Of a stretch of DNA of 64,000 bases, positions 344-60,322 are shown piece by piece. The DNA is from an uncultured Rhodopila sp. (GTDB lineage: Bacteria; Pseudomonadota; Alphaproteobacteria; Acetobacterales; Acetobacteraceae), in assembly GCF_903944925.1 (NCBI RefSeq), contig NZ_CAJATU010000141.1:62001-126000 (forward strand). Direction: 5' to 3'. Positions within the stretch are counted from its first letter, which is position 1. Every line of letters starts with the position of its first letter. Both the position numbers and the translations under genes were made by a program. The notes beneath the pieces were generated by a model. The model was not told where the DNA came from. It saw only the letters and a list, made by a program, of their open reading frames with translations, and searched no databases.

Positions 344-490
344 GGTCAGGTTCCTACCAGGTCCGGCCGCTGCTTTTGCACCCCGCCCGGCGGGAAAGCG
401 AGCGATTCGCGGCGGTCAGTGTAGCAATTCGGGAGGAGTTCCGCCAAGGACCGTCATAAGGTTGCAGGCAATCTCCGGTCGCGGGTTCGG

Positions 491-742: not shown

Positions 743-818
743 CGCAAAACTCCTGGGACCGATAATGGGAAATGCCGGCGAGTTTTGCAACGGATTCGCC
801 CCGGAAGGTGCAGCGGGC

Positions 819-905
819 CAATCTCCGGCCGCGGCGGTCGTCAATGCATCGGCAGATACCGGATAGCCGCGAGCAGGATTCGTCTCCCCATCACCGCTGA
901 TCCCG
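819..905 (-). pseudogene. Decayed 3' end of a paralogue of the DUF1640-like gene
   Basis: Read on the minus strand, this stretch ends LLAAIRYLPMH followed by TGA. The intact neighbour ends LLAVIRYLPVH followed by TGA. DNA similarity continues past the stop into GGCCGGAGATTG versus GACCGGAGATTG, so the two segments are direct repeats about 350 bases apart. No start codon, ribosome binding site or full reading frame remains upstream. I read it as what is left of a tandem duplication of the small membrane-protein gene. The exact limits are approximate. Confidence 0.6.
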
Positions 906-927
906 AACCGTGGCGACAGACCGGCAG

Positions 928-1584: not shown

Positions 1585-1594
1585 GAACGGCAGG

Positions 1595-3004: not shown

Positions 3005-3022
3005 CGTGTGCCTTCTTTCGGA

Positions 3023-3751: not shown

Positions 3752-3971
3752 GGGTGCCTCCGTCGTGCCCGTGAGAGTGAAGGCTGGAAGCGCTGTTCCC
3801 GGCAAGATGGTCCGCCGGCGCGGCGCGGCGCATCGGGTCACATCCGCCATCGGCGCGGGAAATTGATCCACCGGGCGTTCGTCGCGCAAGGGTATAGTGC
3901 TAGAAGGGAAATACCTTGATAGCGCACTAATCAATGCGGAGCGACCTCGCAGAAAAAGGTATCATTTCGCC

Positions 3972-4772: not shown

Positions 4773-4773
4773 T

Positions 4774-4802
4774 CGGACCGTCACATCCACTGTTACGGTC
4801 CG
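4774..4802. terminator. Hairpin between convergent methyltransferase and STAS genes
   Basis: A perfect 8-bp stem, CGGACCGT paired with ACGGTCCG, with a 13-base loop begins 2 bases after the methyltransferase stop. No U-tract follows on either side. A bidirectional terminator is the natural reading from its position, but factor-independent action is uncertain. Confidence 0.5.
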
Positions 4803-4832
4803 CGTCAAGGCTGCGGCAAGAACCCGCGGCAG

Positions 4833-5171
4833 CTATGGCGCAAACGCGGCGAAAGCTGCCTTTTCGCTATCGTATATTTTTAGCAGGCTGTCGAAGCCGG
4901 CGGTGGCCAGAACGGTCTTGACGCCCTCGGTCGGGCTGCAGAGCTTCAATTCACCCCGATTGCCCTGTAGCAGCTTGGCGGTCCGCAAGATGATTCGCAG
5001 GCCTGCGCTGCTCAGGTAGTCGAGCTTTGCGATATTCAGCACTACATGCTTGTCGGGTCCCTGCGCAATCGTCACCATGCGATCGGCGATATCTCCCGAT
5101 GTCCGGCCGTCGAGACGGCCCTCGATGTCGATCACCAAAACGTCGTAGACTTTCCGTGTTTCGATCTGCAT
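4833..5171 (-). CDS. STAS-domain anti-anti-sigma factor-like protein
   Basis: The 112-residue protein is a single STAS domain. LDYLSSAGLRIILRTAKLL is the conserved helix region in which the first or second Ser is the site phosphorylated by an anti-sigma kinase in SpoIIAA/RsbV-like proteins. Such proteins act by partner switching: unphosphorylated, they bind an anti-sigma factor or HPK-type kinase. No anti-sigma kinase, PP2C phosphatase or sigma factor gene is adjacent, so its partner is elsewhere. The 186 bases before the next upstream gene probably carry its own promoter. Confidence 0.88.
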   Translation of the reverse strand: MQIETRKVYDVLVIDIEGRLDGRTSGDIADRMVTIAQGPDKHVVLNIAKLDYLSSAGLRIILRTAKLLQGNRGELKLCSPTEGVKTVLATAGFDSLLKIYDSEKAAFAAFAP

Positions 5172-5357
5172 CCCCCGCTCCCGCCGTTTCGGTTAATCAT
5201 GCGGAAGCGAAACCCGATTGGCAACCTTGGCCTTGCCCGGGCGGGGTGCGCTTTAGACGCCACGCCGCCATTCTACAACTCTGTGGCCCTCATTCTTCCT
5301 CTGTGCTAAATGCGGAGATCAATCCACCGGCGTTGCCATGACAGCACCCCTGATCCT

Positions 5358-5717
5358 CTAATCCGCCTCCGGCAGAATCTCCGTCTTCACCGCCAGCACC
5401 TCCCCCATCCATACCGCATTGATCGTATGATCGTCGCGCGGACGCCCGGACTCCGGGTGCAGCAGCACCGTCAGCCCCTGCCGGTTCAGCATCACGAACG
5501 GCACCACTTCGGCAAACAACTCCGCCGGGAAGCTGAACAGATACATCGCGCGGACATGCGGCCCCACCGGCTCATCCCGCCAGCGACCCATCTTCACCGA
5601 AAACCGAGCCTCCACCCAGTCCCGCAGTATCGCGGCCCGGTCCCGGCTGTCCGGGTCATAGTAAACATGGATATGGTAATCGGTGATCCGCCCGGGATCG
5701 ATCGGCTCCACCGGCAT
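5358..5717 (-). CDS. DOPA 4,5-dioxygenase family protein
   Basis: The protein has 119 residues. DYHIHVYYDP near the N-terminus, GPHVRAMYLFSF in the middle and LTVLLHPESG with a later His (DDHTINAVWMG) match the small DOPA 4,5-dioxygenase family. In that family the histidines of HIHVYYD and of the following strand form the metal or active site, and plant/fungal members cleave DOPA in betalamic acid or muscaflavin formation. The true bacterial substrate is unknown. The ATG at 5717 overlaps the stop of the upstream acyl-CoA ligase as TGATG, so the two are translationally coupled. The longer track frame (start 5816) lies inside the ligase and is not real. Confidence 0.85.
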   Translation of the reverse strand: MPVEPIDPGRITDYHIHVYYDPDSRDRAAILRDWVEARFSVKMGRWRDEPVGPHVRAMYLFSFPAELFAEVVPFVMLNRQGLTVLLHPESGRPRDDHTINAVWMGEVLAVKTEILPEAD

Positions 5718-7252
5718 CACGCATCCTCCTGCAACATTCGTCTCAACTCGCGCTTCGTGACTTTGCCGTAACCGGATTTCGGCAGCTCCGGCCAGACCGC
5801 GAACCGCACCGGCCATTTATACTTCGCCACCCTGCTCTCCAGATGCGCCAGCAGGTCTGCCGCTGTCGCCGTCGCGCCGGGCTCCAGCACCAGGACCGCG
5901 ACACCCGCCTCACCCCATTTCTCGTGCGGCATGCCGACGACGCAGGCTTCCACCACGGCGGGATGCAGCAGCAGCGCCTCCTCGATCTCCCGCGGATAGA
6001 CGTTCGAGCCGCCGGAGATATACATGTCCGACGCCCGGCCGGTGATGTAGACGAATCCGCGCTCATCCACATGCCCCAGGTCGCCGGTATGGAACCAGCC
6101 GAACAGGGTGGCCTTCGCGGTCGCCTCCGGATTGTCGTGGTAGCCGGCGAAAACCCCCGGCCCGCGCACGCAGATTTCGCCGGTCACGCCCGCGGCGAGA
6201 TGCTGACCGGCATCGTCCAGGATCGCGATCTCCATGCCGACGCGGGGAAATCCGCAGCTCCCGACGGCCATGTCCGCGTCGTCCTCGCTGTGCAGCGCAG
6301 CCGGCAGGACAGTGATGTTGCCGGTTACTTCGCCCATGCCGAAATACTGCACCAGCACCTTGCCCAGCTTTTGCAGCGCATGCACCTGATCCGCCCGGTA
6401 CATCGGCGCACCGGCATAGATCACATGCCGCAGGGAACTGTGGTCGTAACGGTCCACGGATTCATGCCGGGTCAGCATCGTCAGGATCGTAGGCACGGTA
6501 AACATGTTGGTCACGCGGTGCTTTTCCACCAGACGCCACGCCTCGTCGCAATCCAGCTTCTCGCCGGACAGCAGGATCGTCGGCGCGCCGCGCGCGACCT
6601 GCGGCAGCGCATGCACCCCGGCGCCGTGCGACAACGGCGCAACGACCAGCGAGGCATCCTCCTCCGTCGTGGCCGGCATCAGGTCGCACAGATGGTTGCA
6701 GACGACATAATCCATCTGCCCGTGGGTCAGCACGCCCGCCTTCGGCCGCCCGGTCGTTCCCGATGTGTAAAAGAACCACGCCGGATGATCCCGGTCCACA
6801 TCCGCCGGACGCAGCAGCCGTTCGCCGCCCGTGGCGAATGCCTCCCAGCCCTCGCCGATGGAAATCTCCAGCCGGCAGGCCGGGTTTTCCGCTTTCGCCG
6901 CCGCCGCGTGCTCCGGAAAAGTCGCCTCGAAGATATGCACCGCCGCGCCGGAGGACGCCGCCAGATAGGCAACCTCCGGCGGTGTCAGGCGGAAATTCGT
7001 CGGCACCCAGACACCGCCGATCATCCAGGTAGCGAACATTGTTTCGAGGACGCAGTTGGAGTTGCGGGCGTGCAGCAGCACCCGGTCGCCGTGCCGCACG
7101 CCGCGCGCCGCCAACGCCCCCGCCGCGGACTGCACCCGGTCGCGAAACGACGCCCAGGTCCAGGTGGTGTCGCGCCAGACGATCGCCCGGCGGTCGGGAA
7201 ACCGCCGCGCGGTCTGCAGCAGCAGCGACGCCAGGTTGCTGGTCGGGATCAG
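5717..7252 (-). CDS. AMP-dependent acyl-CoA ligase (non-canonical start)
   Basis: This is an adenylate-forming acyl-CoA synthetase. FFYTSGTTGRPKAGVLTHGQ is the P-loop motif, YFGMGEVTGNIT replaces the usual YGxTE, FHTGDLGHVDERGFVYITGR is the hinge region, and the C-terminal PKSGYGKVTKRELR supplies the catalytic Lys. The track starts at an internal GTG (7135), which would remove a well-formed N-terminus (SNLASLLLQTARRFPDRRAI). That N-terminus is open only back to the end of the thiolase, with no ATG, GTG or TTG in frame. CTG at 7252-7250 overlaps the thiolase stop and has GGAG 8 bases upstream, so I place the start there; the neighbouring ATC is the alternative. It lies between thiolase and DOPA-dioxygenase-like genes, suggesting activation and breakdown of an aromatic or acyl compound. 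Confidence 0.85.
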   Translation of the reverse strand: MIPTSNLASLLLQTARRFPDRRAIVWRDTTWTWASFRDRVQSAAGALAARGVRHGDRVLLHARNSNCVLETMFATWMIGGVWVPTNFRLTPPEVAYLAASSGAAVHIFEATFPEHAAAAKAENPACRLEISIGEGWEAFATGGERLLRPADVDRDHPAWFFYTSGTTGRPKAGVLTHGQMDYVVCNHLCDLMPATTEEDASLVVAPLSHGAGVHALPQVARGAPTILLSGEKLDCDEAWRLVEKHRVTNMFTVPTILTMLTRHESVDRYDHSSLRHVIYAGAPMYRADQVHALQKLGKVLVQYFGMGEVTGNITVLPAALHSEDDADMAVGSCGFPRVGMEIAILDDAGQHLAAGVTGEICVRGPGVFAGYHDNPEATAKATLFGWFHTGDLGHVDERGFVYITGRASDMYISGGSNVYPREIEEALLLHPAVVEACVVGMPHEKWGEAGVAVLVLEPGATATAADLLAHLESRVAKYKWPVRFAVWPELPKSGYGKVTKRELRRMLQEDA

Positions 7253-8421
7253 TGCAGCGGCTCCAGGATCGAGACGTAATTGGCCACCGCCGCGCCGCCC
7301 ATATTGAACACCCCGCCGCTATCCGCTTTCGGCAACTGCATCCCGGGCGGCGCCTGGCCGGTCAACTGCATCGCCGCCAGCACATGCATCGATACGCCCG
7401 TCGCGCCGATGGGATGGCCCTTCGCTTTCAACCCGCCGGAGGGATTTATCGGCAGGCGCCCGTCCTTCGCCGTCCAGCCCTCCAGCACCGCGCGCGCCCC
7501 CTGCCCCGGCGCGGTCAGCCCCATGGCTTCGTATTCCAGCAACTCCGCTATGGTGAAGCAGTCGTGCGATTCGACAAAGGACAGATCTGTTAGCGGAACA
7601 TCCGCCGCTTCCAGCGCCCGCCCCCACGCCACCGCCGCGCCCTCGAACCGCGTGATGTCCCGCTTGCTGATGGGCAGGAAATCATTGACCTGGACCGCGG
7701 CCTTGAAGCGCACCGCTTTGCCCGTCGCGCGCGCCGTGTCCTCGTCGGTCATGATCAGCGCCACCGCGCCGTCCGACACCAAAGAACAGTCGGTTCGTTT
7801 CAATGGCGCCGCGACATACGGGTTCTTCTCGCTGACGGTGCGGCAGAAATCGAACCCCAGGTCCTTGCGCATCTGCGCGAACGGATTGTCCACGCCGTTC
7901 CTATGGTTTTTCGCCGCAATCGCCGCCAATGCGTCCGACTGGTTGCCGTAGCGCTGGAAATAGGTGTCCGCGATGCGCCCGAACACGCCGGCGAAACCGG
8001 GCGGAATGCCGGCTTCCTCCTTGCGGTAGCTGGCCTTGAGCAGGATGTCGCCGATTTCGGCGCCCGGAGTGGCGGTCATCTTCTCCACACCGATGACCAA
8101 AGCGACCCGGCCGCGCCCGGACAGCAGGAAGTCCCGTGCGCCATACACCGCCGCGGACCCCGAGGCGCACGCGTTCTCGAACCGGGTGATCGGCTTGAAG
8201 CGCAGCTCCGGCACATGCTGCAGCACCAGCGACGCCGGGAAGTCCTGCGCGGAAAAACCACCGTTGAACAGGCTGACGAAAGTGGCGTCGACCTCATGGG
8301 CCTCGATCCCCGCATCCGCAATAGCGGCGCCGGCGACGCGCCCGATCAGCGCTTCGATGTCCGGGTCGTCCAGCTTGCCGAACGGCGAGTGGGACCAGCC
8401 AACGATGCAAGCCTCGGTCAT
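7249..8421 (-). CDS. Thiolase-like acetyl-CoA acetyltransferase (SCP2-type)
   Basis: The 390-residue protein has the nucleophilic Cys in ENACASGSAAVYG, the motif NPSGGLKAKGHPIGATG with the catalytic His, and a late NMGGAAVANYVSILE. The second thiolase Cys (CxG motif) is absent, as in many SCP2-type thiolases, so it may be degradative in an unusual way or a non-decarboxylating condensing enzyme. The start used is ATG 8421, which has AGGAGG 5 bases upstream; the track start at 8508 has none. It is the first gene of the thiolase / ligase / DOPA-dioxygenase-like operon, and its stop overlaps the probable CTG start of the ligase. Confidence 0.9.
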   Translation of the reverse strand: MTEACIVGWSHSPFGKLDDPDIEALIGRVAGAAIADAGIEAHEVDATFVSLFNGGFSAQDFPASLVLQHVPELRFKPITRFENACASGSAAVYGARDFLLSGRGRVALVIGVEKMTATPGAEIGDILLKASYRKEEAGIPPGFAGVFGRIADTYFQRYGNQSDALAAIAAKNHRNGVDNPFAQMRKDLGFDFCRTVSEKNPYVAAPLKRTDCSLVSDGAVALIMTDEDTARATGKAVRFKAAVQVNDFLPISKRDITRFEGAAVAWGRALEAADVPLTDLSFVESHDCFTIAELLEYEAMGLTAPGQGARAVLEGWTAKDGRLPINPSGGLKAKGHPIGATGVSMHVLAAMQLTGQAPPGMQLPKADSGGVFNMGGAAVANYVSILEPLH

Positions 8422-8519
8422 GCGGTTCCTCCTGCGACCAATATTTTCCTGAACTGTAGCGGATTGAGGCCCGCAAGGCGATGGGGCAGGATGACGCTTC
8501 CGCCGCACGAGGACGTTTC

Positions 8520-8999
8520 ATGCCACGGCTGGTGATGGTCTTGCTTCTGTTTGCCGCCGGTTCCGCCAGGGCCGCCGATGAGGGACTTGCGGCTCAATGC
8601 GCCCGGCTGCGCGACGATGACACAATCCACGGCTACGAGCCGTCGCTGAACGCCGGGTTGCTCTACGCCTTCGAAAGGCTGTTTCCGTCAGCCCCGGCGC
8701 CGCCGGACCAGCGCGCGGTAGAAGCCGGTGCGCATATCCGCTGCATGGACGGGCGGCTGCTCGCCTGCTTCACCGGCGCCAACCTGCCCTGCGAAAAAAT
8801 GGTCCAAACCCGCGATAACCCGGGCGCGGCCGCGTTCTGCCGCGACAATCCGGACGCGGGCGGTGTCCCGGCTTACGCCGCCGGTCACGATACGATCTAC
8901 AGCTACCGCTGCGTCGCCGGTCGTCCTGAAGCCGACGGCACGCTGTTTACCCTCGACCGGCGCGGCTTCGCGGCTGAACTCTGGACGCCGCTGAACTGA
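8520..8999 (+). CDS. Secreted Cys-rich hypothetical protein
   Basis: The 159-residue product begins with a signal peptide (MPRLVMVLLLFAAGSARAADEG, cleavage after ARA). The mature part has six cysteines, which suggests periplasmic disulphides. GAGGA lies 6 bases before ATG 8520, so this start is preferred to the 8481 start of the track. It is transcribed away from the thiolase operon, with about 100 bases between the two starts. I do not recognise a family; no catalytic motif is visible. Confidence 0.75.
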   Translation: MPRLVMVLLLFAAGSARAADEGLAAQCARLRDDDTIHGYEPSLNAGLLYAFERLFPSAPAPPDQRAVEAGAHIRCMDGRLLACFTGANLPCEKMVQTRDNPGAAAFCRDNPDAGGVPAYAAGHDTIYSYRCVAGRPEADGTLFTLDRRGFAAELWTPLN

Positions 9000-9008
9000 C
9001 AGACGGAC

Positions 9009-9893
9009 TCAGCCGCGGACCCGCCGCCGGCTGAGTAGCGCCAGGCCAAGCAAACCCGTGCCGAGCAGAGCGGCCGAGGCAGGCTCGGGGACCGCGAGCA
9101 CCGACGTTCCGACGGAGTGAATCGGGTTCACGTAGGCGACCGCATCATTCGACGATTCGAAGCCGGTGGGGCCGGAATCGGAAAAGACCACGCTGGTGAT
9201 GAACCCGGTCAGGTCGAAGACGTTCACGTAAGCGAACAGCTCCTGCCAGTCCTGGCCGAGGAATTGGGGCGTAGGATTGCCGCAATATTGATTGCCCGAG
9301 CCCCATGAACACGCCCCCAGATCGGCGACCAGGTTGGCCGAGTTGAATTCCGCGACCACCGTGTTGCCATTATAGAGCGTAAGGTTGTTGTAGGGGTCGA
9401 GCGCACTGATCCAGATACCGAAATAATTGACTCCAGGCACGCCGGTCGCGGACAGGTTCAAGGTATAGTTTGACACGTTGGTGCCGCCCACCGCGGCGCC
9501 CCCGTACAGCTCCGGGTAGGTTTGACCGGATACGCCGCCGTATTGGTTCTGCGCAACGCTGACCCATTCTCCGCCGGTCCCGGTGGTCGTGCCCGCACCT
9601 GCGGTATAGACCCCGGTGAACGACACGCCCGCCGGTAGCAAGTAGGTTCCTGCTCCCGCGTCCGTGTAACTCGACGTGAACGGGCTGGTGCCGGTCCAAC
9701 CGGTGAAATTTTCCGTCCCGAAGTCGCAGACAACCGTGTTCGCGCAAATCGAGGCGTAATCCGGTGCGGTTTGCCCGGCGGCCGAGTAGGTGACGTCAAC
9801 CGTGTCGGCGAACGCGGGCGCGGACACAACCAGCATCGCCGCCATCACGAGCGGGCCGTTTAGTCTTGCGACACGATATCCGAGCCTTGCCAT
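9009..9893 (-). CDS. PEP-CTERM sorting-domain exported protein
   Basis: The 294-residue protein has a signal peptide (PLVMAAMLVVSAPAFADT), a long Gly/Thr/Asn/Ser-rich middle of low charge, and a C-terminal sorting signal: VPEPASAALLGTGLLGLALL followed by the basic tail SRRRVRG. That is the PEP-CTERM tripartite signal processed by exosortase (EpsH/XrtA) in bacteria that make extracellular polysaccharide. Four cysteines in the mature part may pair. Start at ATG 9893, with GAGGGG 8 bases upstream; the track uses a TTG two codons earlier. An exosortase gene is not in this window. A second PEP-CTERM protein lies at 54612-55361. Confidence 0.88.
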   Translation of the reverse strand: MARLGYRVARLNGPLVMAAMLVVSAPAFADTVDVTYSAAGQTAPDYASICANTVVCDFGTENFTGWTGTSPFTSSYTDAGAGTYLLPAGVSFTGVYTAGAGTTTGTGGEWVSVAQNQYGGVSGQTYPELYGGAAVGGTNVSNYTLNLSATGVPGVNYFGIWISALDPYNNLTLYNGNTVVAEFNSANLVADLGACSWGSGNQYCGNPTPQFLGQDWQELFAYVNVFDLTGFITSVVFSDSGPTGFESSNDAVAYVNPIHSVGTSVLAVPEPASAALLGTGLLGLALLSRRRVRG

Positions 9894-9976
9894 TCCCAAA
9901 CACCCCTCGGCGAGCGAATAATTGCCCCGCAGTATGCAAAGCCGTTTAGCACACTGGTAATCGAGAAAGAATACTG

Positions 9977-10006
9977 AAATAGCGAAATATCGTCTAAAAT
10001 GTGCAA
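9977..10006 (-). promoter_or_regulatory. Candidate sigma-70-like promoter for the PEP-CTERM gene
   Basis: In the AT-rich stretch upstream of the 9893 start, the minus strand reads TTGCAC, 18 bases, CTATTT. This resembles a -35/-10 pair about 80 bases before the start codon. The whole 9900-10030 interval is far more AT-rich than its surroundings. Weak evidence; no factor-specific site is claimed. Confidence 0.3.
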
Positions 10007-10125
10007 AAATGTCTCTTTAATCTAACTTTGGCGAGCGCACATAGACGCGTCCGGATATCGTCGCTCGCACCGGCCCCCTCATCGTCACGCGCAACGCCGT
10101 GACAACGGAAGCGCAAGCCGCTGCC

Positions 10126-11079
10126 TCAACGAACCGGAGCGGGCGGCTTGCCGCTGGCGCCATAGTCGTGCGTCGGCAACCCGGCCACCGCCTTCTGGAT
10201 CGCCGCGGGGGCGCTGGCCCGCATCACCTGCTGCGCCAAGCGATCGCGCACCGACTCGAAACTCGGTGTCCCCTGCTGCCGCCTGGCCTCGACCTTGACA
10301 ATGAACCAGGCGTTGGGCGCCACCCGGACCGGGAACGCGGAGGTCTGACCGGGAGACAAGGCAAACAGCACCGCGCCGATGCCAGGCGAGACCGCGTCGA
10401 GGCGGACAAAGCCGAGCTCGCCGCCGGCCTTGGCCGAGGCATCCCGGCTCATGCTGCGTGCCAGCGCCGCGAAGTCGCCACCCTTTGAAAGCGACGACAG
10501 GACATCCAGGGCTTCCTGCTGCGTATTGGTCATGATCACGCGGGCCTGCACCTCCTCGGGCCCGGGCTTGCCGGCAATCTCCCGTTCGTAGGCAGCGCGC
10601 AGCATCTGCTCGGTCACCGCCGGCCCGACGGTCCGTCTCAGGTATTCGTTCGCCAGGATTGTGTCGCTGGACGCGGCGATCCGCCGCCGCACCGCCGGGT
10701 CCTTGTCGATCCCCATCTCCTTGGCCCGAATCACCATCGCCTGCTGTGCCATGAGGCCCTGCACCGTCGTATGGTAGACGACGTCCAGGGTTACACCGCC
10801 ATCGGTTGCCGGCACGTTGCGCAGCGCATCGCCGACATCGCCGCGCGTAATGGCCGTGTTGCCGATTTCAGCGACGACGGTGGCGGGGTCCTTGGAAAAC
10901 TCTTCGCTGAGCTTGCGGACCGATGCCAGCACATCGGCTGCCGACTCCGCCTGCGTCGGCGCAGCCGGTTCCACGGCATGAACGCCGATGGGCGCAGCGC
11001 CTGCCAGCGCCGCCGCGATCGCCAGGCGCCGGACGACACCGCACCGTCTCGCCGATGAAGAAAAGACCTCGTTCCGCAT
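10126..11079 (-). CDS. Parvulin-type peptidyl-prolyl isomerase (SurA/PrsA-like)
   Basis: The 317-residue protein has a signal peptide (LAIAAALAGAAPIGVHA), then an N-terminal helical region with VVAEIGNTAITRGDVGDAL, the N-domain start of SurA/PpiD-like chaperones. A PpiC/rotamase domain follows at about 175-270 (EVQARVIMTNTQQEA, GGDFAALARSMSRDASAKAGGELGFVRLDAV). Such proteins fold outer-membrane and periplasmic proteins. The C-terminal tail is Pro-rich. GAAGGG lies upstream of ATG 11079. It is a single gene; the closest partner is the PEP-CTERM gene 230 bases downstream on the same strand. Confidence 0.9.
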   Translation of the reverse strand: MRNEVFSSSARRCGVVRRLAIAAALAGAAPIGVHAVEPAAPTQAESAADVLASVRKLSEEFSKDPATVVAEIGNTAITRGDVGDALRNVPATDGGVTLDVVYHTTVQGLMAQQAMVIRAKEMGIDKDPAVRRRIAASSDTILANEYLRRTVGPAVTEQMLRAAYEREIAGKPGPEEVQARVIMTNTQQEALDVLSSLSKGGDFAALARSMSRDASAKAGGELGFVRLDAVSPGIGAVLFALSPGQTSAFPVRVAPNAWFIVKVEARRQQGTPSFESVRDRLAQQVMRASAPAAIQKAVAGLPTHDYGASGKPPAPVR

Positions 11080-11251
11080 GCTATCGGCCCTTCAAGTCTC
11101 GCAAGTTGGTTGCGCCGCAGGTATGACGCCAAGCGCGAACTCCCGCAATCGCGATCACGTCCTCGGCGCATGACCGGGGCATGCGTCACGCCATGGACAC
11201 GGACGCGCCGGACCGGTATCGGGCAGCGCCTGACTGCCTGGAGAAGACCCG

Positions 11252-51874: not shown

Positions 51875-53032
51875 ATGACCGCATGGGATCGCCCGGCCAC
51901 AGGCCGCCGTCTTCGGGCCGTAAGCACCCTTGCGTTGCTGGCCGCGCTCGGCGCCTGCAGCAACGGAACCCACCAGAGCGCGATCGACGAATCGGCCCGC
52001 TACGCCGCACACGCCCGCGGCGACTACCGGCCGCCCGGACCGCCGGATGACCCGTGGGGACCCTATATCCGCGAGGCCTCCGCCAAGTATGACATTCCGG
52101 AGACTTGGATTCGCTCTCTCATGCGGGTCGAGTCCGGCGGCAAAGAATACGTGAACGGAAGCCTGGTCACCTCCGGCGCCGGCGCAATGGGCCTGATGCA
52201 GGTCATGCCCGGCACCTATGACGGGTTGCGGGACCGCTACAACCTGGGTGACGACCCGTATGAGCCGCATGACAACATCATGGCCGGCGTCGCCTATATG
52301 CGTGAAATGTATGAGCTTTACGGGAGTCCGGGCTTCCTGGCGGCGTATAATGCCGGACCGGCCCGGCTGGACGACTACCTGGCGAACATTCGCCCCTTGC
52401 CCGACGAAACCCGCCATTACGTCGCGATGATCGGCCCCAACCTGCGGGGCATCTACCCGAACAACCGCTCTGCCGCGGATGAGATGGCGATGAACGAGTT
52501 GCCGGTGAACATCCCGCCCGGCCGGCGCTACGGCCGCCCGAGCCATCCGGTGATGCTGGCCGGCGCCCGTCCGGGCGGCGGCGGCCGGGTGCCGCGGCGC
52601 GCCCCGGTGGAGGTCGCCCAGCTTCCGGAACCGCCGGCGTATCGCGCTTCAGGCGGACAACAGGTGGCGTTGATCACGCCGCCCGTTGCGCCCCCGCCGC
52701 CCTCCGGCGGGTTCCGCATGATTGCGTCGGCCAACGCCGCCGATGCCGCACCTGCCCGCCACGGTGCCGCGGCCTCCGGCCAATGGGCCATCCAGGTCGG
52801 CGCCTTCGCCAACCAGGGCCAGGCGCACAGCGCGCTGAACGCGGCCACGGGCCATGCTCATGTCGAACTGGCGGTTGCGCATCCGTACGTGGCCAGCGTC
52901 CACCAGGGCCGCACTGTGATGTGGCGCGCCCGGATGACCGGGATGTCGCGTGAGACGGCGATCCAGGCGTGCGAGAAGATTACACATGGGCGGTCGAGCT
53001 GCATCGTGCTGTCGCCGGACGCCCAGTCGTAG
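51875..53032 (+). CDS. Lytic transglycosylase lipoprotein with SPOR domain
   Basis: The 385-residue protein has a lipoprotein signal (LLAALGACSN, Cys 28). The SLT domain has VESGGKEYVNG with the catalytic Glu in RVESGG, GAMGLMQVMPGTYDGL and YMREMYELYGSPGFLAAYNAGPARLDDY. A Pro-rich linker (LITPPVAPPPPSGG) leads to a C-terminal SPOR domain (WAIQVGAFANQGQAHSALNAA), which binds denuded peptidoglycan at the division site. It cleaves peptidoglycan glycan strands. ATG 51875 has GGAG upstream. Transcribed away from the exporter. Confidence 0.94.
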   Translation: MTAWDRPATGRRLRAVSTLALLAALGACSNGTHQSAIDESARYAAHARGDYRPPGPPDDPWGPYIREASAKYDIPETWIRSLMRVESGGKEYVNGSLVTSGAGAMGLMQVMPGTYDGLRDRYNLGDDPYEPHDNIMAGVAYMREMYELYGSPGFLAAYNAGPARLDDYLANIRPLPDETRHYVAMIGPNLRGIYPNNRSAADEMAMNELPVNIPPGRRYGRPSHPVMLAGARPGGGGRVPRRAPVEVAQLPEPPAYRASGGQQVALITPPVAPPPPSGGFRMIASANAADAAPARHGAAASGQWAIQVGAFANQGQAHSALNAATGHAHVELAVAHPYVASVHQGRTVMWRARMTGMSRETAIQACEKITHGRSSCIVLSPDAQS

Positions 53033-53042
53033 CGGCTCGGGG

Positions 53043-53606
53043 TCAGAGTGGCTTCAGGGGTGGCGTTTCGCCGTCCGGCAGCGGCACCCGGGCGACGTTC
53101 AGGACCATCGACACCAGGCTGTAGTAGCCGACGGCGCCGACAAGATCGATGATGCCGCGGTCGCCGAAGCGCTCCAGCGCCGGCTGGTAGCGTTGGTCGG
53201 ACACAGCGCCCGTGGTCAGCAGTTCGGTGACGAATTCATACACCAGCGTTTCATCCGGGCTAAGGTCCCGCGGCCGGCGGCCGGCGGCGATCGAGTCCAG
53301 GATGTCCGGGTTCAAGCCGGCCTCGATGCCGAGTTGGCGGTGGGCGTAGAACTCGTACTGGGCGCCCCATTTGCGCCCGGCGAGGCAGATCGCCAGCTCG
53401 TTCAGCGGCGCCGGGATGGAGCTGCCGAAACGCACATGGGCGCCGACGCGCTGCACCAGGTCGCAAAGCTGCGGGCTGCGCAACAGCGCGTTGAACGGGC
53501 CGCGCAAGCCGGAGCCGCGCGGGCCGGACTGGATCGCATCGGCGACAGCCCGCTGCTCGTCGGTCATGGTGTCCGGGGTCAGCTCCGGAAAACGGGATGC
53601 GGACAT
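53043..53606 (-). CDS. Carboxymuconolactone decarboxylase family protein
   Basis: The 187-residue protein is of the CMD/AhpD-like fold: GPFNALLRSPQLCDLVQRVGAHVRFGSSIPAPLNELAICLAGRKWGAQYEFYAHRQLGIEAGL is the conserved helical bundle. It lacks the CxxC of AhpD, so it is unlikely to be a peroxidase-type disulphide reductase. Its reaction is unknown. It is convergent with the transglycosylase gene and follows the HAD gene by about 100 bases. Confidence 0.9.
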   Translation of the reverse strand: MSASRFPELTPDTMTDEQRAVADAIQSGPRGSGLRGPFNALLRSPQLCDLVQRVGAHVRFGSSIPAPLNELAICLAGRKWGAQYEFYAHRQLGIEAGLNPDILDSIAAGRRPRDLSPDETLVYEFVTELLTTGAVSDQRYQPALERFGDRGIIDLVGAVGYYSLVSMVLNVARVPLPDGETPPLKPL

Positions 53607-53702
53607 GGTATGGCTTCCTTCGGTCGCATGAATGAGGTCCGCCGCGCGGAGTTCGCCTGAGCCTAGCGCAACTTCCCGCGGGGCAAAATCGCCGGGGTTT
53701 CG

Positions 53703-54365
53703 CTACAGGTCGATCCACTCCTCGTAGCGGCGCAGCATGTCGGCAGGGTCCCGGTAGATCGCGAAGCAGCCGGTCCGGCGCAGATCCTGTTCGGGGAAAC
53801 CGCCGCACAGCACGCCGATGGTGCGAAGTCCGGCTTTGCCCGCCGCCTCGGCGTCATAGGGGGTGTCGCCAACGACGATCGTGTCGCGGGGTTCGATGCC
53901 GTTCAGCCGCGCCAACGCCGCATGGAAGATATCGGGATGCGGCTTGGATCTTTCGGCGTCATCCGAGGAGGTTTGCGTGTCCGTGAGCTCCGCGATTCCG
54001 GCTATGCGTTTGTAGATCTCGAGTTCTTCGTCCCTGGCCGACGATGCCAGCGCGATCGTCCTGCGGTCCTGCCGAAGCCGGAGAAACAGGTCTCGGACAC
54101 CCGGAAAGGCGATCACCAGCGGGAGATACCTTTCCTTGAACAGTGCGCTGCGATGCGCGGCGATCGCATCGCCCTGGCGGTCGAGGTTGCCCTTGGACAG
54201 GAACACCGGCATCAACTGGTCGCGGCCCTTGCCGATGTGGCCGCGGATGGCCCGGGCATCGATGTCGTGGCCGAAGTCGCGGAAGGCGTCCTGCCAGGAC
54301 CGGGCGTGCAAATCGACGGAATCCACCAGGGTTCCGTCCACGTCAAAAATGATGGCTTGCGGCAT
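53703..54365 (-). CDS. HAD superfamily phosphatase (Gph/PgmB-like)
   Basis: The 220-residue protein has FDVDGTLVDSVDLHARSW, with the nucleophile Asp and the DxD acid/base, IALASSARDEEL (motif II), KPHPDIFHAAL (motif III Lys) and IVVGDTPYDAEAAGKAG (motif IV). The cap lies between residues 20 and 90 as in phosphoglycolate phosphatase and beta-phosphoglucomutase-like enzymes. Substrate is unknown. ATG 54365 is the likely start. It is divergent from the PEP-CTERM gene. Confidence 0.92.
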   Translation of the reverse strand: MPQAIIFDVDGTLVDSVDLHARSWQDAFRDFGHDIDARAIRGHIGKGRDQLMPVFLSKGNLDRQGDAIAAHRSALFKERYLPLVIAFPGVRDLFLRLRQDRRTIALASSARDEELEIYKRIAGIAELTDTQTSSDDAERSKPHPDIFHAALARLNGIEPRDTIVVGDTPYDAEAAGKAGLRTIGVLCGGFPEQDLRRTGCFAIYRDPADMLRRYEEWIDL

Positions 54366-54554
54366 CGGGGTCTCGCATGCGGGGTCGGGACCGTGCAACG
54401 CGCCGGGCGGCATCGCAGCATGGGCGCGCCGGGTTCACGTTGCGGCGAATACCGGTACGCGCGCCGCCGGATGGAATTCGTACTAAGCGAGGGATTCCTG
54501 TGAGAGCGGAATGCTCCGTCGGAAAGCCGTCCTTTAGCGCGACGGAATTATTGA

Positions 54555-54583
54555 TTGATCAAACTTATGTGATGTGGTTATCT
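54555..54583 (+). promoter_or_regulatory. Candidate promoter of the second PEP-CTERM gene
   Basis: TTGATC, 17 bases, TTATCT reads as a sigma-70-like -35/-10 pair 28 bases before the ATG at 54612. The -35 lies in the palindrome TTGATCAA. The surrounding 60 bases are AT-rich. Confidence 0.45.
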
Positions 54584-54611
54584 GGTGCAACCGCATCATC
54601 TGGAGCCGACC

Positions 54612-55361
54612 ATGCGACACGAGCCGACCGTCCCCGACGCAACGACGTCCCCGCCTTGTGCCGCACAATGGCAACCCGGCCACGGCCGCGCCATCCTGCA
54701 GATTTCAGCCGCGACGGCAGCGCTTTTCGGCGCCCCCGGCCTGGCGATGGCGACTCCGGAGTTCACCCCCCCGGCCGGCGTGTCCGACTACCGGCTGCTG
54801 TTCGTGACCGCCGACTCAACCACGGCATCATCCGCCGATATCTCCACCTACAACGCGTTCGTCACGAACGAGGCCGCGCAAAACTCGGCGCTGCCGGCAA
54901 CGACCTGGACGGCGATCGTCAGCACGCCGACGGTCAACGCGGTGACCAACGTTGATATCGGCGCGAACGGCGATGCGAACGTGCCGATCTACCTGGTGGA
55001 CGGGGGGTTCATCTCTTCATCGGCCAACGCTTTTTTCGGCGGAAGCATCCCCGGCATGCCCGCTGTGGACCAGTTCGGCAACTCAAATCAGAATTATGTC
55101 TGGACCGGCTCAAACTCGGATGGTTCGGCTTATGCCGGTTACGAGTTAGGCGGAAGCAACGGGACAGGACAAGGCATTGACTGGATTAGCCCATCGTTTG
55201 TTCTTTCCCTCTATGGCTGGTCCGATTCCACGACGAGCAACACCTATCCTCTCTACGCCCTCAGCGGCGAGATCGACGTTCCGGAACCGGCGACCGGTTC
55301 GGCGTTGCTCGTCGGTGGGCTGATCGTCACCCGCGTCTTCCGCCGCCGCCGCTACCACTGA
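54612..55361 (+). CDS. PEP-CTERM sorting-domain exported protein
   Basis: The 249-residue protein begins with a long n-region, then a signal peptide (ILQISAATAALFGAPGLAMAT). The mature part is Ser/Thr/Asn/Gly-rich (YRLLFVTADSTTASSADISTYNAFVTNEA) and resembles PEP-CTERM proteins of unknown function. The C-terminus, VPEPATGSALLVGGLIVTRVFRRRRYH, is the sorting signal: PEP, a hydrophobic span and a basic tail. ATG 54612 has GGAG upstream; the track's 54585 is earlier and unsupported. It is divergent from the HAD gene and upstream of the adenylating-enzyme cluster. Confidence 0.85.
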   Translation: MRHEPTVPDATTSPPCAAQWQPGHGRAILQISAATAALFGAPGLAMATPEFTPPAGVSDYRLLFVTADSTTASSADISTYNAFVTNEAAQNSALPATTWTAIVSTPTVNAVTNVDIGANGDANVPIYLVDGGFISSSANAFFGGSIPGMPAVDQFGNSNQNYVWTGSNSDGSAYAGYELGGSNGTGQGIDWISPSFVLSLYGWSDSTTSNTYPLYALSGEIDVPEPATGSALLVGGLIVTRVFRRRRYH

Positions 55362-55442
55362 CGCGCCTTAACCGCGGAGCCTCCGTGTCTCGCCGGCAAC
55401 CCCGGCGGGCGCGACGACTGTCGTAACCGATGGCACCGCCGC

Positions 55443-56894
55443 ATGAACGTCACTGAACCGATACGCCGCATCGCGCGGCTGAATCCGAGCGCGACCGCCA
55501 TCATCCGCGCCGACGGCAGCAGCATCAGCTACGGCGTGCTCGACCATGCCATCGACCGCATGGCGGGCTATGCGGCCAGGCTCGGGCTTGAACCAGGAGA
55601 CGTCGCCGGCCTGAGCATTGCCGGCCCCGACGAATCCCTCGGCCTGACCCTCATGCTCGCCCTCGCCCGCATCGGCGTCGCCAGCGCGGAACCGAACGCA
55701 CCGGCGGAAGGTTTGCGCCTGCGCTTCCAGGCCGGCGCCGCGACCGCGCCCGGAAACGTCGGCTTCGACGCATGTTGGATGAGCAGCGAACCGGCGCCAG
55801 CGGATCACGTCCCGGCGCCAATCCGTAACGATCCCGCGGCGTTGTTTCGCATCTTCTCGTCGTCCGGCACCACCGGCAGGCCGAAGCACATCGCCGTCAC
55901 CCAGGCGGTGCAGCTTCGCCGGGTGTTTGCGTTCGGCCTCGCCGATGGCCTCGGACCAGCCGTCCGCGTTATCGGGATCAACCTTGGCTGCTCCTGGGGA
56001 TGCGCCACGGCGTTGCGGACGTTGTGGGCAGGCGGGACGATCGTGCTGTCCAACCCGGCGCACGCCCCGGATACCATACCGCGACACGGGGTGACGTCGA
56101 TCGTCACCTCTCCCGTCTCCCTGCGGATGATCCTGGACGCGTTGCCGCCCGGCACCGGCCCCTTTCCACGGCTTGAGCAGATCGAGGTGGGGGGAAGCGT
56201 GGTGCCGGAGACCTTGTGGCGGATGGCCGCCGAACGCCTGTGCAGGCGGATCGTCTCGATCGTCGGATCGGGCGAGGCGGGACTGACGGCCTCCGCCCCG
56301 ATCGATGCCCTGATCGCACGCCGCGGTGCCGGCGGCCTGATCGTGCCGGGCGTCGAGATCGAGGCCATGGACGAGGCGAACCACACGCTGCCGCCGGGGC
56401 ATGAGGGTGTTCTGCGCATCCGCAGCGACCGGCTTGCCTCGGGTTATCTCCAGGACCCCGAAAGTTCCACCGAGCGGTTCCGGGACGGCTGGTTCTACTC
56501 GAACGACATCGGCACAGTCTGGCCCGACGGCCTGCTGACGATCAGCGGCCGGACTTCGGACGTAATCAATGCCGGCGGGGTCAAAGTGCATCCGCAGGTC
56601 ATCGAATCGGCACTTCTGAAGCTGCCGCTGGTGGTTGACGCCGCCGCGTTCGGTGTCCCGGATGCCACGGGTGTCACCCGCATCTGGGCCGCGATCGTGG
56701 CCCGGTCGCGCATCGATGATGCGGTGCTGAACGCATTTTGCCGGCACGCGCTGCCCGGAATCTCGCCGCAGACCATCTTGCAGATGAAGGCGCTGCCGCG
56801 AAACGAAAACGGCAAGGTGCGGCGCGAGCAGTTGGTCGATATCGGACTGCACGCGAACAGGCGGCCAGCCGAAGCGATGGCGGCTCATGTGTGA
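55443..56894 (+). CDS. Adenylate-forming (ANL) enzyme, first of a tandem pair
   Basis: The 483-residue protein is a small ANL enzyme. SSSGTTGRPKHIAVTQA is the P-loop and RNENGKVRREQL the C-terminal catalytic Lys region. The A5 motif (usually YGxTE) reads GSGEAGLT, and the hinge has WFYSNDIGTVWPDGLLTISGR, where the Gly of TGD is replaced. The N-terminus MNVTEPIRRIARLNPSATAIIRADGSSISYG aligns with the next gene, so the two arose by duplication. No carrier-protein domain follows. It may load a CoA or a stand-alone carrier; substrate unknown. The next gene begins 113 bases after its stop. Confidence 0.85.
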   Translation: MNVTEPIRRIARLNPSATAIIRADGSSISYGVLDHAIDRMAGYAARLGLEPGDVAGLSIAGPDESLGLTLMLALARIGVASAEPNAPAEGLRLRFQAGAATAPGNVGFDACWMSSEPAPADHVPAPIRNDPAALFRIFSSSGTTGRPKHIAVTQAVQLRRVFAFGLADGLGPAVRVIGINLGCSWGCATALRTLWAGGTIVLSNPAHAPDTIPRHGVTSIVTSPVSLRMILDALPPGTGPFPRLEQIEVGGSVVPETLWRMAAERLCRRIVSIVGSGEAGLTASAPIDALIARRGAGGLIVPGVEIEAMDEANHTLPPGHEGVLRIRSDRLASGYLQDPESSTERFRDGWFYSNDIGTVWPDGLLTISGRTSDVINAGGVKVHPQVIESALLKLPLVVDAAAFGVPDATGVTRIWAAIVARSRIDDAVLNAFCRHALPGISPQTILQMKALPRNENGKVRREQLVDIGLHANRRPAEAMAAHV

Positions 56895-57007
56895 TCGCCC
56901 GCGTTGTCGTGGCTATCCCCCCGCCGCAGGTGGCCCGGGCAAGACCAAACGCGTCGCGCCGGACGGCGCCCTCCTGACCCCAGCACCCCATGCAGCCCGA
57001 GGCGATT

Positions 57008-58447
57008 TTGAACATCACCGCGCCCATTCGCCATACCGCCCGCCTCACGCCTGACGCTGTTGCGATCGTCCGTGCGGATGACAGTATCATCACCTATGGC
57101 ATGTTGGATCGCGCGATCGACCGGATGGCCGGCCACGCCGCCAATCTCGGGCTGCGGGCGGGCGATGTCGCGGGCGTTGCCATCCAGAATGAAACCACGC
57201 CGCTGATCCTCGCCCTCGGCCTGGCGCGGATGGGCGCGCTCAGCGCCGAGCCTTCGCTGCCAGCCGAGCAGATGAAGCTGTGCTTCCAGTTCGGACAAAG
57301 GGCGAACCCCGGACAGGTGCGCTTCGACGATTCCTGGATTGAGCCGGCGGCGGGCAGCAAAGCGGCGTCCCCGCGCACCATCCATGGCGATCCACTGGCC
57401 CTGTGCCGGATCTTTTCCTCATCCGGCACCACCGGCACGGCCAAGCACATTCCGGTCAGCCATGAGCTGATGATGCGCCGGGTCTACAGCCGCTGGCTCT
57501 GTCAGGGCGGCGGACCCCTGACCCGGATGATCGCGGTCGGCCTCGGCATCGGCTGGGGCTTCACCACGGTGCTGGTGACATTGTGGCAGGGTGGCACGCT
57601 CGTTCAGTTCAATCGGCCGGAGGCTGTGGAAGCGATGCGGCGGCACCGTGTGAACGTTCTCGTCACCTCGCCGTCAACGTTGAAAACGCTGGCGGAGATG
57701 CGGCCGCCCGGACAGGGGCCGCTGCCCGATCTCATGGCCATCGAGGCCGGCGGCAGCAACTTGCCGGACCTTGTGCGCCGGGCGGCAGCCGATCGGCTGT
57801 GCCGAAATGTCATCGTGCATGCAGGCGCTTGCGAGGCGGGTGGCACGGCCTCGGGCCCTGCGGACGCCCTGGACGGACGTCCTGACGCGGCGGGGTTCGT
57901 CTGGCCGGACGTCGAGATGCAGGCGGTGAGCGCGGATCATGTGCCGCTTCCGCCGGGAACCGAGGGCATCCTGCGGGTCCGCAGCGCCATGGTGGCGCCG
58001 GGCTATTACCGCGACGATGTCGCGACCGCCGAAAGCTTCCGGGATGGCTGGTTCTATCCCGGCGATATCGGCACCGTCTGGCCGGACGGGGTGCTGTGCC
58101 TGAACGGCCGGAATGCCGATCTGATCAATGTTGGCGGCGACAAGATCAGTCCGCAGCGGATCGAGACGGGGCTGCTGGCGATCCCGGGCGTGAGCGATGC
58201 CGCTGCGTTCGGAGTGCCCGACGGCGTGGGCCTGACCCGGGTATGGGCGGCGATCACCTCCGGCGCGCCGATTGAAGATGCGGTACTGGATGCCTTCTGC
58301 GGCACGCTGCCGTCGCACATGGCGCCGCAGATCGTCCTCCAACTCGAGGATCTGCCCCGCAACGAGAACGGCAAGATCAGGCGGGAAGCGCTGGTCGATC
58401 TGGCGCTGCAACTCAGTCAACCGGCGCGCCAGGCAGAGCCCGCATGA
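57008..58447 (+). CDS. Adenylate-forming (ANL) enzyme, second of a tandem pair
   Basis: The product has about 479 residues and is a paralogue of the preceding enzyme along its whole length. SSSGTTGTAKHIPVSHE is the P-loop (the conserved Pro before Lys is Ala), HAGACEAGGTA stands in for A5, WFYPGDIGTVWPDGVLCLNGR is the hinge and RNENGKIRREAL the catalytic Lys region. TTG 57008 aligns with the ATG of the paralogue and has GAGG 6 bases upstream; the ATG at 56990 used by the track has no ribosome binding site, but remains possible. Its stop overlaps the MFS start by 4 bases. Substrate is unknown and probably differs from that of its twin. Confidence 0.83.
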   Translation: MNITAPIRHTARLTPDAVAIVRADDSIITYGMLDRAIDRMAGHAANLGLRAGDVAGVAIQNETTPLILALGLARMGALSAEPSLPAEQMKLCFQFGQRANPGQVRFDDSWIEPAAGSKAASPRTIHGDPLALCRIFSSSGTTGTAKHIPVSHELMMRRVYSRWLCQGGGPLTRMIAVGLGIGWGFTTVLVTLWQGGTLVQFNRPEAVEAMRRHRVNVLVTSPSTLKTLAEMRPPGQGPLPDLMAIEAGGSNLPDLVRRAAADRLCRNVIVHAGACEAGGTASGPADALDGRPDAAGFVWPDVEMQAVSADHVPLPPGTEGILRVRSAMVAPGYYRDDVATAESFRDGWFYPGDIGTVWPDGVLCLNGRNADLINVGGDKISPQRIETGLLAIPGVSDAAAFGVPDGVGLTRVWAAITSGAPIEDAVLDAFCGTLPSHMAPQIVLQLEDLPRNENGKIRREALVDLALQLSQPARQAEPA

Positions 58448-59745
58448 CCAGGGCGTTCGGCAGCGCCTCGGGGCGGATCAGGCGCTGCCAACGGACCGCG
58501 CTTTGTCTGATTACCCTGGCCGGGCTGCTGAACTTCATCGACCGATCGGCCCTGGCGGTGGCCAACCCGCTGATCCGGCACGATCTCGGGCTGTCGATGG
58601 GTCAGATGGGATTGTTGCTGTCCGCCTTCCTGTGGGCCTACGCGCTATGCCAGCTTCCCTCCGGCGTGCTGGTGGACCGGTGGGGACCGCGCCGGCTCCT
58701 GGGGGGCAGTATCCTGTTGTGGTCCGGCGTGCAGGCGCTGGGCGGCCTGGCCAGTGGTCTATGGGGTTTCGCCGGAGCGCGCGTCGCGCTGGGCCTGGCC
58801 GAGGCGCCGCTGTTCCCCGGAATGGTCCGCATCGTGCGCGACTGGTTCGCTCCTCATGAGCGCGGCCTGCCGAGCGGTATCGGCTTCTCCGCCAACAAGA
58901 TCGGCCCGGCGCTCGCCCCGCTGCTGCTGACGCCGCTGATGCTGACCTGCGGCTGGCGCTGGACATTCGCATTGACCGGTGCCGCCGGGGTCGTGGTGGC
59001 GGGTGTCTGGTACCGGTTTTACCGGGATCCCGGCAGCCTGCGCCTGACCGCGGACGAAACCGCGTATCTGTCCGGCGGCTATGATGAAGCCGATAGCCGG
59101 CGGACGACCCTGGCCGACTGGTGCAGGCTGCTGCGCTACCGCACCACCTGGGGCATGGTCCTGGGCCTGTTCGGGGAGATGTATATGGGCTGGCTCTACC
59201 AGACCTGGCTGCCGGCCTATCTCGAAATCGAGCGCCACATGAGCATCCCGAAGACGGGGTGGGTCGCGGGCATCCCGTTCGTGTTCGGCGTCATAGGCAG
59301 CATCGGTTCCGGCTGGCTGACGGACTGGCTGTCGTCCCGGGGACTGTCGCGGGTGAACAGTTGCAAATTGCCTATTGTGAGCGGTCTGGTCGGGATGGCG
59401 GGGTTTACCGTGATCGCGGCGCTGACGCCGAGCACCATCGTCGCGGTGTCCGCCATTTCGGTGGCCCTGCTATTCAACGGCATGTCCGGCGCGATGGCCT
59501 GCACGTTGGCGAGTGTGGTCGCCCCACGCCGCTGCGCCGGGTCGCTGCAAGGCATTCAGACTTGCGGCGGGTTCGTGGGCGGCTCACTGGCACCGGTGGT
59601 GACCGGCTTCATCGTACAGGGTGGAGGCGGTTTCGCACCGGCGCTGTTGTTCAGCGCGTGCGTCGGTCTGGTGTCTGCGCTGGCATATGTGTTCGTGGTG
59701 CAGGACCGGCCTATGGAGGCGAGTGCGTTTGCCGGCGTGGCCTGA
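58444..59745 (+). CDS. MFS transporter (anion:cation symporter type)
   Basis: The 433-residue protein has twelve hydrophobic segments. LNFIDRSALAVANPLIRHDLGLSMGQMGLLLSAFLWAYALCQLPSGVLVDRWGPRRLL is the start of the ACS family (phthalate, glucarate, galactonate and similar organic anions). GFSANKIGPALAPLLLTPLML and the loop after helix 6 also fit. ATG 58444 overlaps the second ANL stop (ATGA), so the three genes form one operon. Import of a carboxylate for adenylation by the ANL enzymes is the obvious reading, but export of a product is equally possible. Confidence 0.92.
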   Translation: MTRAFGSASGRIRRCQRTALCLITLAGLLNFIDRSALAVANPLIRHDLGLSMGQMGLLLSAFLWAYALCQLPSGVLVDRWGPRRLLGGSILLWSGVQALGGLASGLWGFAGARVALGLAEAPLFPGMVRIVRDWFAPHERGLPSGIGFSANKIGPALAPLLLTPLMLTCGWRWTFALTGAAGVVVAGVWYRFYRDPGSLRLTADETAYLSGGYDEADSRRTTLADWCRLLRYRTTWGMVLGLFGEMYMGWLYQTWLPAYLEIERHMSIPKTGWVAGIPFVFGVIGSIGSGWLTDWLSSRGLSRVNSCKLPIVSGLVGMAGFTVIAALTPSTIVAVSAISVALLFNGMSGAMACTLASVVAPRRCAGSLQGIQTCGGFVGGSLAPVVTGFIVQGGGGFAPALLFSACVGLVSALAYVFVVQDRPMEASAFAGVA

Positions 59746-59829
59746 AGAAAATGTCGCGCAGGTATAGATTGAGCCTACGATAGTATGTAGGCGTCAACCG
59801 TTTGTTCACACTTTGCCGTCAAAATAAAA

Positions 59830-59858
59830 AAGCCGGCGGGATTTTTTCCCGCCGGCTT
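59830..59858 (+). promoter_or_regulatory. 5' leader hairpin, unit 1
   Basis: AAGCCGGCGGGA, loop TTTTT, TCCCGCCGGCTT is a perfect 12-bp stem, 6 bases before GGAGGT. It could act as a leader structure governing translation of the peptide, or as an attenuator. An upstream terminator for the MFS operon is also possible, although the U-run lies in the loop rather than after the stem. The stem recurs in unit 2 with another loop. Confidence 0.6.
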
Positions 59859-59875
59859 AACCTGGAGGTAAGAGG

Positions 59876-59956
59876 ATGCTTGAAAACCTTACCCTCCTGG
59901 CGCTGATTGTGGTGATCGTGACCATCAAAGTCAAGATTATCATCAAGAAGCGATAG
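59876..59956 (+). CDS. 26-residue hydrophobic/cationic microprotein, copy 1
   Basis: An ATG at 59876 with GGAGGT 7 bases upstream opens a 26-codon frame ended by TAG. The peptide is one short membrane span (LTLLALIVVIVTI) followed by a cationic tail (KVKIIIKKR). It lies 130 bases after the MFS stop and is too short for the ORF track. The nearest copy, 359 bases downstream, differs at 3 of 26 residues, while four codon changes are silent. That pattern, and the very strong Shine-Dalgarno sequence, argue for a real gene. Hydrophobic peptides of this size include type I toxins (Ibs, Ldr, Fst groups) and small regulators of membrane proteins. No family is recognised; no toxic activity is claimed. 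Confidence 0.7.
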   Translation: MLENLTLLALIVVIVTIKVKIIIKKR

Positions 59957-59964
59957 GGGGAGTG

Positions 59965-59989
59965 GGCCGGTCCGCAAAACGGGCCGGCC
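59965..59989. terminator. Hairpin after microprotein copy 1
   Basis: GGCCGGTCC, loop GCAAAAC, GGGCCGGCC: a 9-bp stem with one G-U pair, 8 bases after the stop codon. It lacks a U-tract. In unit 2 the same stem separates the microprotein from the convergent acnA gene, so it may stop transcription from both sides. Confidence 0.6.
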
Positions 59990-60001
59990 TGCCCCGGGTG
60001 A

Positions 60002-60070
60002 TCAGGCGGTCTTGACCAACGCCGGCAGCTCATCGCGCCGGATGCCGCCGTGCCGTATCTGCCGATCCAC
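60002..60070 (-). pseudogene. Diverged remnant of the acnA 3' end
   Basis: On the minus strand this reads VDRQIRHGGIRRDELPALVKTA followed by TGA. The end of intact AcnA reads VDEVAYYQHGGILRYVLREMAKAA followed by TAG. The stop positions are exactly 360 bases apart, the same offset as the flanking duplication. Only the last 22-24 codons are present. It has no start and cannot make aconitase. Confidence 0.6.
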
Positions 60071-60189
60071 GCTACGGCGGTGCGGGTTTGCGGCGGCGGG
60101 CGGAGAAAAATGTCGCACGAGTATAGGCCGAGTATACCGTAGTATGTGGGCGTCAACGATTTCTTCACACTTTGCCGTCAATATGAAAA

Positions 60190-60214
60190 AGCCGGCGGGA
60201 TTGTCCCGCCGGCT
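60190..60214 (+). promoter_or_regulatory. 5' leader hairpin, unit 2
   Basis: AGCCGGCGGGA, loop TTG, TCCCGCCGGCT is an 11-bp perfect stem. Compared with unit 1 the stem is kept and the loop differs in length and sequence, which fits an RNA structure under selection. Confidence 0.6.
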
Positions 60215-60234
60215 CAACACTCGGAGGTAAGCCA

Positions 60235-60315
60235 GTGCTACAACACCTTACGCTCCTGGCGCTTACTGTGGTGATCGTGACCATCAAAGTCAAGATCATC
60301 ATCAAGAAGCGATAG
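60235..60315 (+). CDS. 26-residue hydrophobic/cationic microprotein, copy 2
   Basis: A GTG at 60235 with GGAGGT 7 bases upstream starts a 26-codon frame ended by TAG, 46 bases from the acnA stop on the other strand. Relative to copy 1 three residues differ: E3Q, N4H and I11T. The span and the cationic tail KVKIIIKKR are unchanged. The use of GTG may lower expression compared with copy 1. It has the same leader and trailing hairpins. No family is recognised. Function as in copy 1 is unknown; two active copies in tandem is common for type I toxin families, but no antisense RNA promoter can be demonstrated here. Confidence 0.68.
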   Translation: MLQHLTLLALTVVIVTIKVKIIIKKR

Positions 60316-60322
60316 GGGAGTA

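Follow-up and report, generated by a model that had tools for sequence, protein, structure and literature searches.

Aryl- and acyl-CoA ligases such as 4-chlorobenzoate-CoA ligase, benzoate-CoA ligase and MenE are encoded in degradation or menaquinone clusters, and metabolic acid-activating enzymes are rarely tied to surface proteins by genome context. One AMP-forming ligase, the exosortase A-associated acyl-CoA ligase (TIGR03098), is linked to the PEP-CTERM/exosortase system; few PEP-CTERM proteins have known functions. In the D-galactonate:H+ symporter DgoT (SLC17/ACS), net flux depends on Asp46 and Glu133 (PMC10149257). Here we present the features of a locus from an uncultured Rhodopila sp. 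(Acetobacteraceae), in which two stand-alone adenylate-forming enzymes of the ANL superfamily, ANL1 and ANL2, are encoded between a PEP-CTERM surface protein and an MFS transporter. The window, i.e., the whole stretch of DNA analyzed, comprises 64,000 nucleotides; the handles G, L and C denote genomes, loci and contigs.

Gene order and gene products of the locus

Table 1. Features of the locus (positions within the window)
Feature	Position	Strand	Remarks
Exported PEP-CTERM surface protein, endostatin-like fold	54612..55361	+	Alternative GTG start 54585, likely ATG 54612
PEP-CTERM sorting signal (VPEP...RRRR)	55275..55349	+	Residues 231-255 of the 54585 ORF
ANL1, stand-alone adenylate-forming enzyme, 483 aa	55443..56894	+	PF00501 117.6 bits, PF13193 39.5 bits
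ANL2, ANL1 paralogue, 485 aa	56990..58447	+	PF00501 113.5 bits; PF13193 above cut-off
Putative MFS organic-anion:H+ symporter, ACS/SLC17 (DgoT-like) type	58444..59745	+	MFS_1; TIGR00893 277.5 bits (cut-off 395)

The surface-protein gene ends 81 bp before the start of ANL1, and the stop of ANL2 and the start of the MFS gene share an ATGA (58444-58447); the four genes are probably co-transcribed as one operon. Promoter and terminator scans remained at chance level, the single Rfam match (CC2171) scored far under its gathering score, and no catabolic gene lies directly beside the operon. A first-pass annotation had described the last three genes as tandem adenylating enzymes coupled by an ATGA overlap to an ACS-type MFS carrier, with no carrier protein. 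The three reading frames and the overlap were confirmed (PF00501 and PF13193, each above cut-off, for both enzymes, MFS_1 for the third), and no carrier-protein domain was found among the Pfam-scanned neighbors (51875-59745). The adjacent upstream gene had been missed, and it is this gene that proved to be the most conserved neighbor.

The surface protein has a hydrophobic N-terminal segment and, at its C-terminus, the PEP motif, transmembrane helix and basic (Arg) tail that define PEP-CTERM proteins. It passed TIGR02595 (18.0 bits, cut-off 16) and missed PF07589 (16.6 bits, cut-off 20.7), whose cut-off is exceeded by its homologues at L102 and L019. An exosortase gene (PF09721, 207.8 bits) is present in the window genome at C110:73214, on a different contig from the operon. 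The AlphaFold model has a confident core (pLDDT mostly 83-97) and was matched by Foldseek to endostatin (1dy1, E 3.5e-8); TM-scores of 0.68-0.72 by target length against endostatin entries indicate an endostatin-like fold, of the C-type-lectin type.

ANL1 and ANL2 are 52% identical across 475 aligned residues, far beyond chance. The window genome (7.0 Mb) yielded 34 AMP-binding matches, yet the best ANL1 match outside the twin pair is only 29% identical, so the earlier observation of twin paralogues stands. Both enzymes belong to the ANL superfamily by their AMP-binding and AMP-binding_C domains, P-loop, A5 Glu, A7 Asp, A8 Arg and A10 Lys. Because these motif residues are invariant (S141, G142, E278, D355, R370 and K458 of ANL1 in 27 of 27 aligned relatives), adenylation activity is to be expected of both. 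The Thr that usually, but not universally, precedes the A5 Glu in the superfamily is replaced by Gly in ANL1 (GSGE) and by Cys in ANL2 (GACE), a site that varies among close relatives. The other motifs of ANL2 are intact, and the A7 context of ANL1 reads SND instead of the usual GD-type, as in its orthologues from G024 and G060. Regarding the motif departures reported in the first-pass annotation, the one at A5 is real, whereas the hinge variant INxGG is common to most of the clade and hence not peculiar to the twins.

The closest fold to the ANL1 structure model (pLDDT 90.9) is 4-chlorobenzoate-CoA ligase; other near folds are benzoate-CoA ligase, MenE, MatB, CahJ and the amide synthetase McbA. 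These neighbors suggest that an acid, plausibly an aromatic one, is activated, although such a fold does not fix the substrate. In the tree, ANL1 and the G060 enzyme form one group (98) whose sister is ANL2 (95), which makes the duplication look older than the split from G060. Further tandem ANLs occur at L021, L022, L117, L024, L028, L049, L078, L083 and other loci; as these copies mostly cluster within their own locus, local duplication appears to recur in the family, and they look like independent duplications.

Downstream of the operon (59746-60316), two copies of a repeat of ~210 bp are 84% identical; both contain an inverted repeat of 12 pairs and encode a very small peptide that is hydrophobic and basic (MLENLTLLALIVVIVTIKVKIIIKKR). 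At C192:136354, a third copy (72%) encodes MHNHLYLVKLLVVIVTVKVKINIRKR. The peptides possibly represent a small membrane-peptide or toxin-like family.

Surface-protein neighbors of related enzymes

The PEP-CTERM surface protein is the most conserved neighbor of the ANL gene, and the MFS gene is optional. A homologue lies directly upstream of ANL, on the same strand, at ten other Acetobacteraceae loci (G024, G025, G012, G019, G017, G332/L017, G063/L019, G075 and both G060 sites). Within the genus, the surface protein and ANL were each found in eight of 33 genomes; six genomes have both, always adjacent, and in G011 and G006 the surface protein is present with no ANL beside it. A family-wide search (E below 1e-60) gave an ANL match in 14 of 398 genomes. 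The seven interpretable loci newly reached have an upstream PEP-CTERM protein in four cases (G060 twice, G075, G292), an autotransporter in two (G252, G210) and neither in one (G248). The position of the PEP homologue is taken by a further PEP-CTERM protein in G292 and by an autotransporter in G015, G252 and G210.

One G060 site encodes surface protein, ANL and MFS with all junctions overlapping. About half of the pairs have no adjacent transporter (G012, G017, G019, G075, G332 and the second G060 site), and at many loci the surface protein and ANL stand alone. The ANL-ANL-MFS arrangement, for which the first-pass annotation had proposed a neighborhood search, does recur, but only in one sister species (G024) besides the window genome (G000). 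These two have the entire neighborhood in common, and the triplet was rejected as a conserved unit. A TPR-sulfotransferase gene follows ANL in G063, G025 and L061, and a TPR-GT9 gene in G252 and G210.

TPR-sulfotransferase fusions downstream of a surface protein-ANL pair were located at L133:5605-7506, L102:7404-8882 and L061:4272-6350. At L061 (Rhizomicrobium MAG, positions 1-11180), an autotransporter, ANL, TPR-sulfotransferase and 4-hydroxybenzoate hydroxylase are encoded consecutively; LigB and a second ANL follow later in the locus.

A tree of 112 relatives was divided into clade S (58 rows, twins included) and clade C (54 rows), and the conserved surface-protein pairing is specific to the former. 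In clade S, an exported surface protein is adjacent at 29 of 46 loci, these being PEP-CTERM proteins, autotransporters, AIDA/Hint adhesins, OMP_b-brl (8-stranded OMP) barrels and one Porin_2. Counted by gene, surface proteins account for 29 of 91 adjacent versus 1 of 404 other genes in clade S and for 0 of 89 adjacent genes in clade C. For the contrast between the clades, Fisher p is ~1e-10, a value that is only indicative given the relatedness of the sequences and the choice of HMM seeds from these neighbors. As the seeds came from clade S neighbors, the adjacency counts, based on a simple gene caller, favor the seeded surface-protein types. The single per-locus count in clade C (1/46) is L136, a locus shared with a clade S enzyme.

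Same-strand neighbors of more distant relatives (Pfam, n=106) included Amidohydro_2 (24), TctC (18) and acyl-CoA dehydrogenase (8). A class-wide profile search yielded no adjacent match to the surface-protein HMMs; it returned almost only sister-type enzymes and L176 and L181 were without gene calls, so it serves as a control and does not amount to a held-out test. An order-wide search returned largely the same genomes. One exception to the clade pattern came from the class-wide search: at L208:2901-3665, a PEP-CTERM-like protein is encoded divergently from an ANL gene of the sister type. A separate conserved catabolic unit is formed beside clade C enzymes by an amidohydrolase_2 of ~288 aa (AIDAVVNIWT...), which recurs at L179, L183, L189, L202 and many of L025-L095 and is frequently accompanied by an acyl-CoA dehydrogenase-like gene.

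Transport and possible functions

The best family of the window MFS is TIGR00893 (ACS) at 277.5 bits, under the cut-off of 395. Its closest solved structure is DgoT (6e9n, E 2e-60), whose D46, R47, Y79 and E133 align with identical residues (D33, R34, Y66, E120), so that the equivalents of the proton-coupling residues D46, R47 and E133 are all present. The same MFS follows ANL in G024 (87% identical) and G060 (58%), where it is ~100 residues shorter, apparently by an internal gap. Three MFS types occur in ANL gene runs, namely ACS (window, G024, G060), HpaX-like (G025) and the aromatic-acid/H+ symport type AAHS (G252 and G210, ATGA-coupled to ANL); an AAHS-like MFS also follows ANL in L056, and TctC or TctA is found near L021, L022, L036, L066 and L091. 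Because ACS, HpaX-like and AAHS transporters are organic-anion importer families, uptake is likelier than the export that the first-pass annotation had also considered. The conserved DgoT residues, together with HpaX-like or AAHS-like MFS or TctC/TctA at related loci, favor import by the window MFS.

Our preferred reading, held tentatively and at somewhat less than an even chance, is that an organic, probably aromatic, acid is taken up and adenylated while the surface protein acts outside. The MFS would import the carboxylate with protons; ANL1 and ANL2 would then use ATP to adenylate it, with CoA as the most likely acceptor, and the pair would perhaps serve two related acids. Anchored via its PEP-CTERM tail, the exported protein may act in the extracellular binding of the substrate or of its source. 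In favor of this reading are the adjacency of surface protein and ANL, the importer-type MFS genes and the retained DgoT residues, the 4-hydroxybenzoate hydroxylase and LigB genes of L061, the catabolic neighbors of distant relatives, the invariant catalytic residues and the aryl/acyl-CoA ligase folds. The gene order, the adenylation motifs, the symporter residues and the clade-specific pairing are seen in the sequences, whereas co-transcription, the substrate class, CoA as acceptor and a binding role of the surface protein are what we infer. Uptake and activation of two related carboxylates had been suggested in the first-pass annotation, and the suggestion gains from the recurrence of ANL-MFS coupling with importer families but is weakened by the narrow distribution of the twins and the optional MFS. 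Points against our preferred reading are that about half of the pairs have no transporter beside them, that no catabolic gene adjoins the window operon and that neither PEP-CTERM proteins nor autotransporters form uptake channels.

The TPR-sulfotransferase and TPR-GT9 genes fit better with the main rival, a possible but rather doubtful one, namely surface decoration: the importer would supply an acid which, once activated by ANL, is attached to the exported protein encoded alongside or to the glycan of that protein, either directly or with the help of transferases. The TPR enzymes would then be further modifying enzymes recognizing the protein. A surface protein of interchangeable fold is what would be expected of an acceptor, loci with only surface protein and ANL are many, and the nearest folds include McbA, a synthetase of amide bonds; however, at most loci no acyltransferase was found, adenylation is cytosolic whereas the partner is exported, and catabolic genes accompany the sister-clade relatives and L061. 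That a dedicated class of adenylating enzymes modifies co-encoded surface proteins (PEP-CTERM, autotransporters, OMPs) or glycans with an activated carboxylic acid is an unlikely proposition; if true, it would mean a way of modifying bacterial surface proteins that has not been described.

McbA-like folds, and the lack of a nearby CoA-dependent downstream enzyme, would also suit the second option of the first-pass annotation, a small pathway that forms an amide or ester and relies on the MFS for export. This we regard as highly improbable, since the MFS keeps the proton-coupling residues of a galactonate uptake carrier, the MFS families replacing it are importers and a second biosynthetic enzyme is absent. 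A gene block that was jointly inherited or transferred, with no functional link, would explain the patchy spread in genus and family and the common neighborhood of the window and G024, but this account is quite unlikely: non-homologous surface proteins occupy the same place across lineages, several unrelated folds beside clade S enzymes argue against a single inherited block, and the wider neighborhoods differ between loci. The pairing of one ANL clade with several unrelated surface-protein types suggests that either a nutrient strategy of capture and activation has gone unrecognized or a new type of surface modification is at work, and it gives PEP-CTERM proteins a testable enzymatic partner.

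Comparison with known systems

The ANL enzymes and the transporter are of known kinds; the surface protein-ANL pairing was not found described in the open-access literature searched. The best PDB sequence match is CahJ (5wm2), which like EntE and DhbE is a stand-alone aryl-AMP ligase; in contrast to these, no aryl carrier protein lies beside the window genes (51875-59745 scanned). The tie to the PEP-CTERM/exosortase system is shared with the TIGR03098 ligase, but the window ANL genes are distant from the exosortase gene, and membership of ANL1 and ANL2 in that family was ruled out (104.6 and 122.8 bits, cut-off 592). Relative to DgoT, the window MFS keeps the proton-coupling Asp and Glu and the substrate Arg but scores under the TIGR00893 cut-off. 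The aryl/acyl-CoA ligases are among the best structural matches and are alike in fold and adenylation motifs, whereas identity to them in the structural alignments is only 21-24%, and the window ANLs are shorter (ANL1, 483 aa), are devoid of the A5 Thr and have a surface protein, not a degradation or menaquinone cluster, as their genomic partner.
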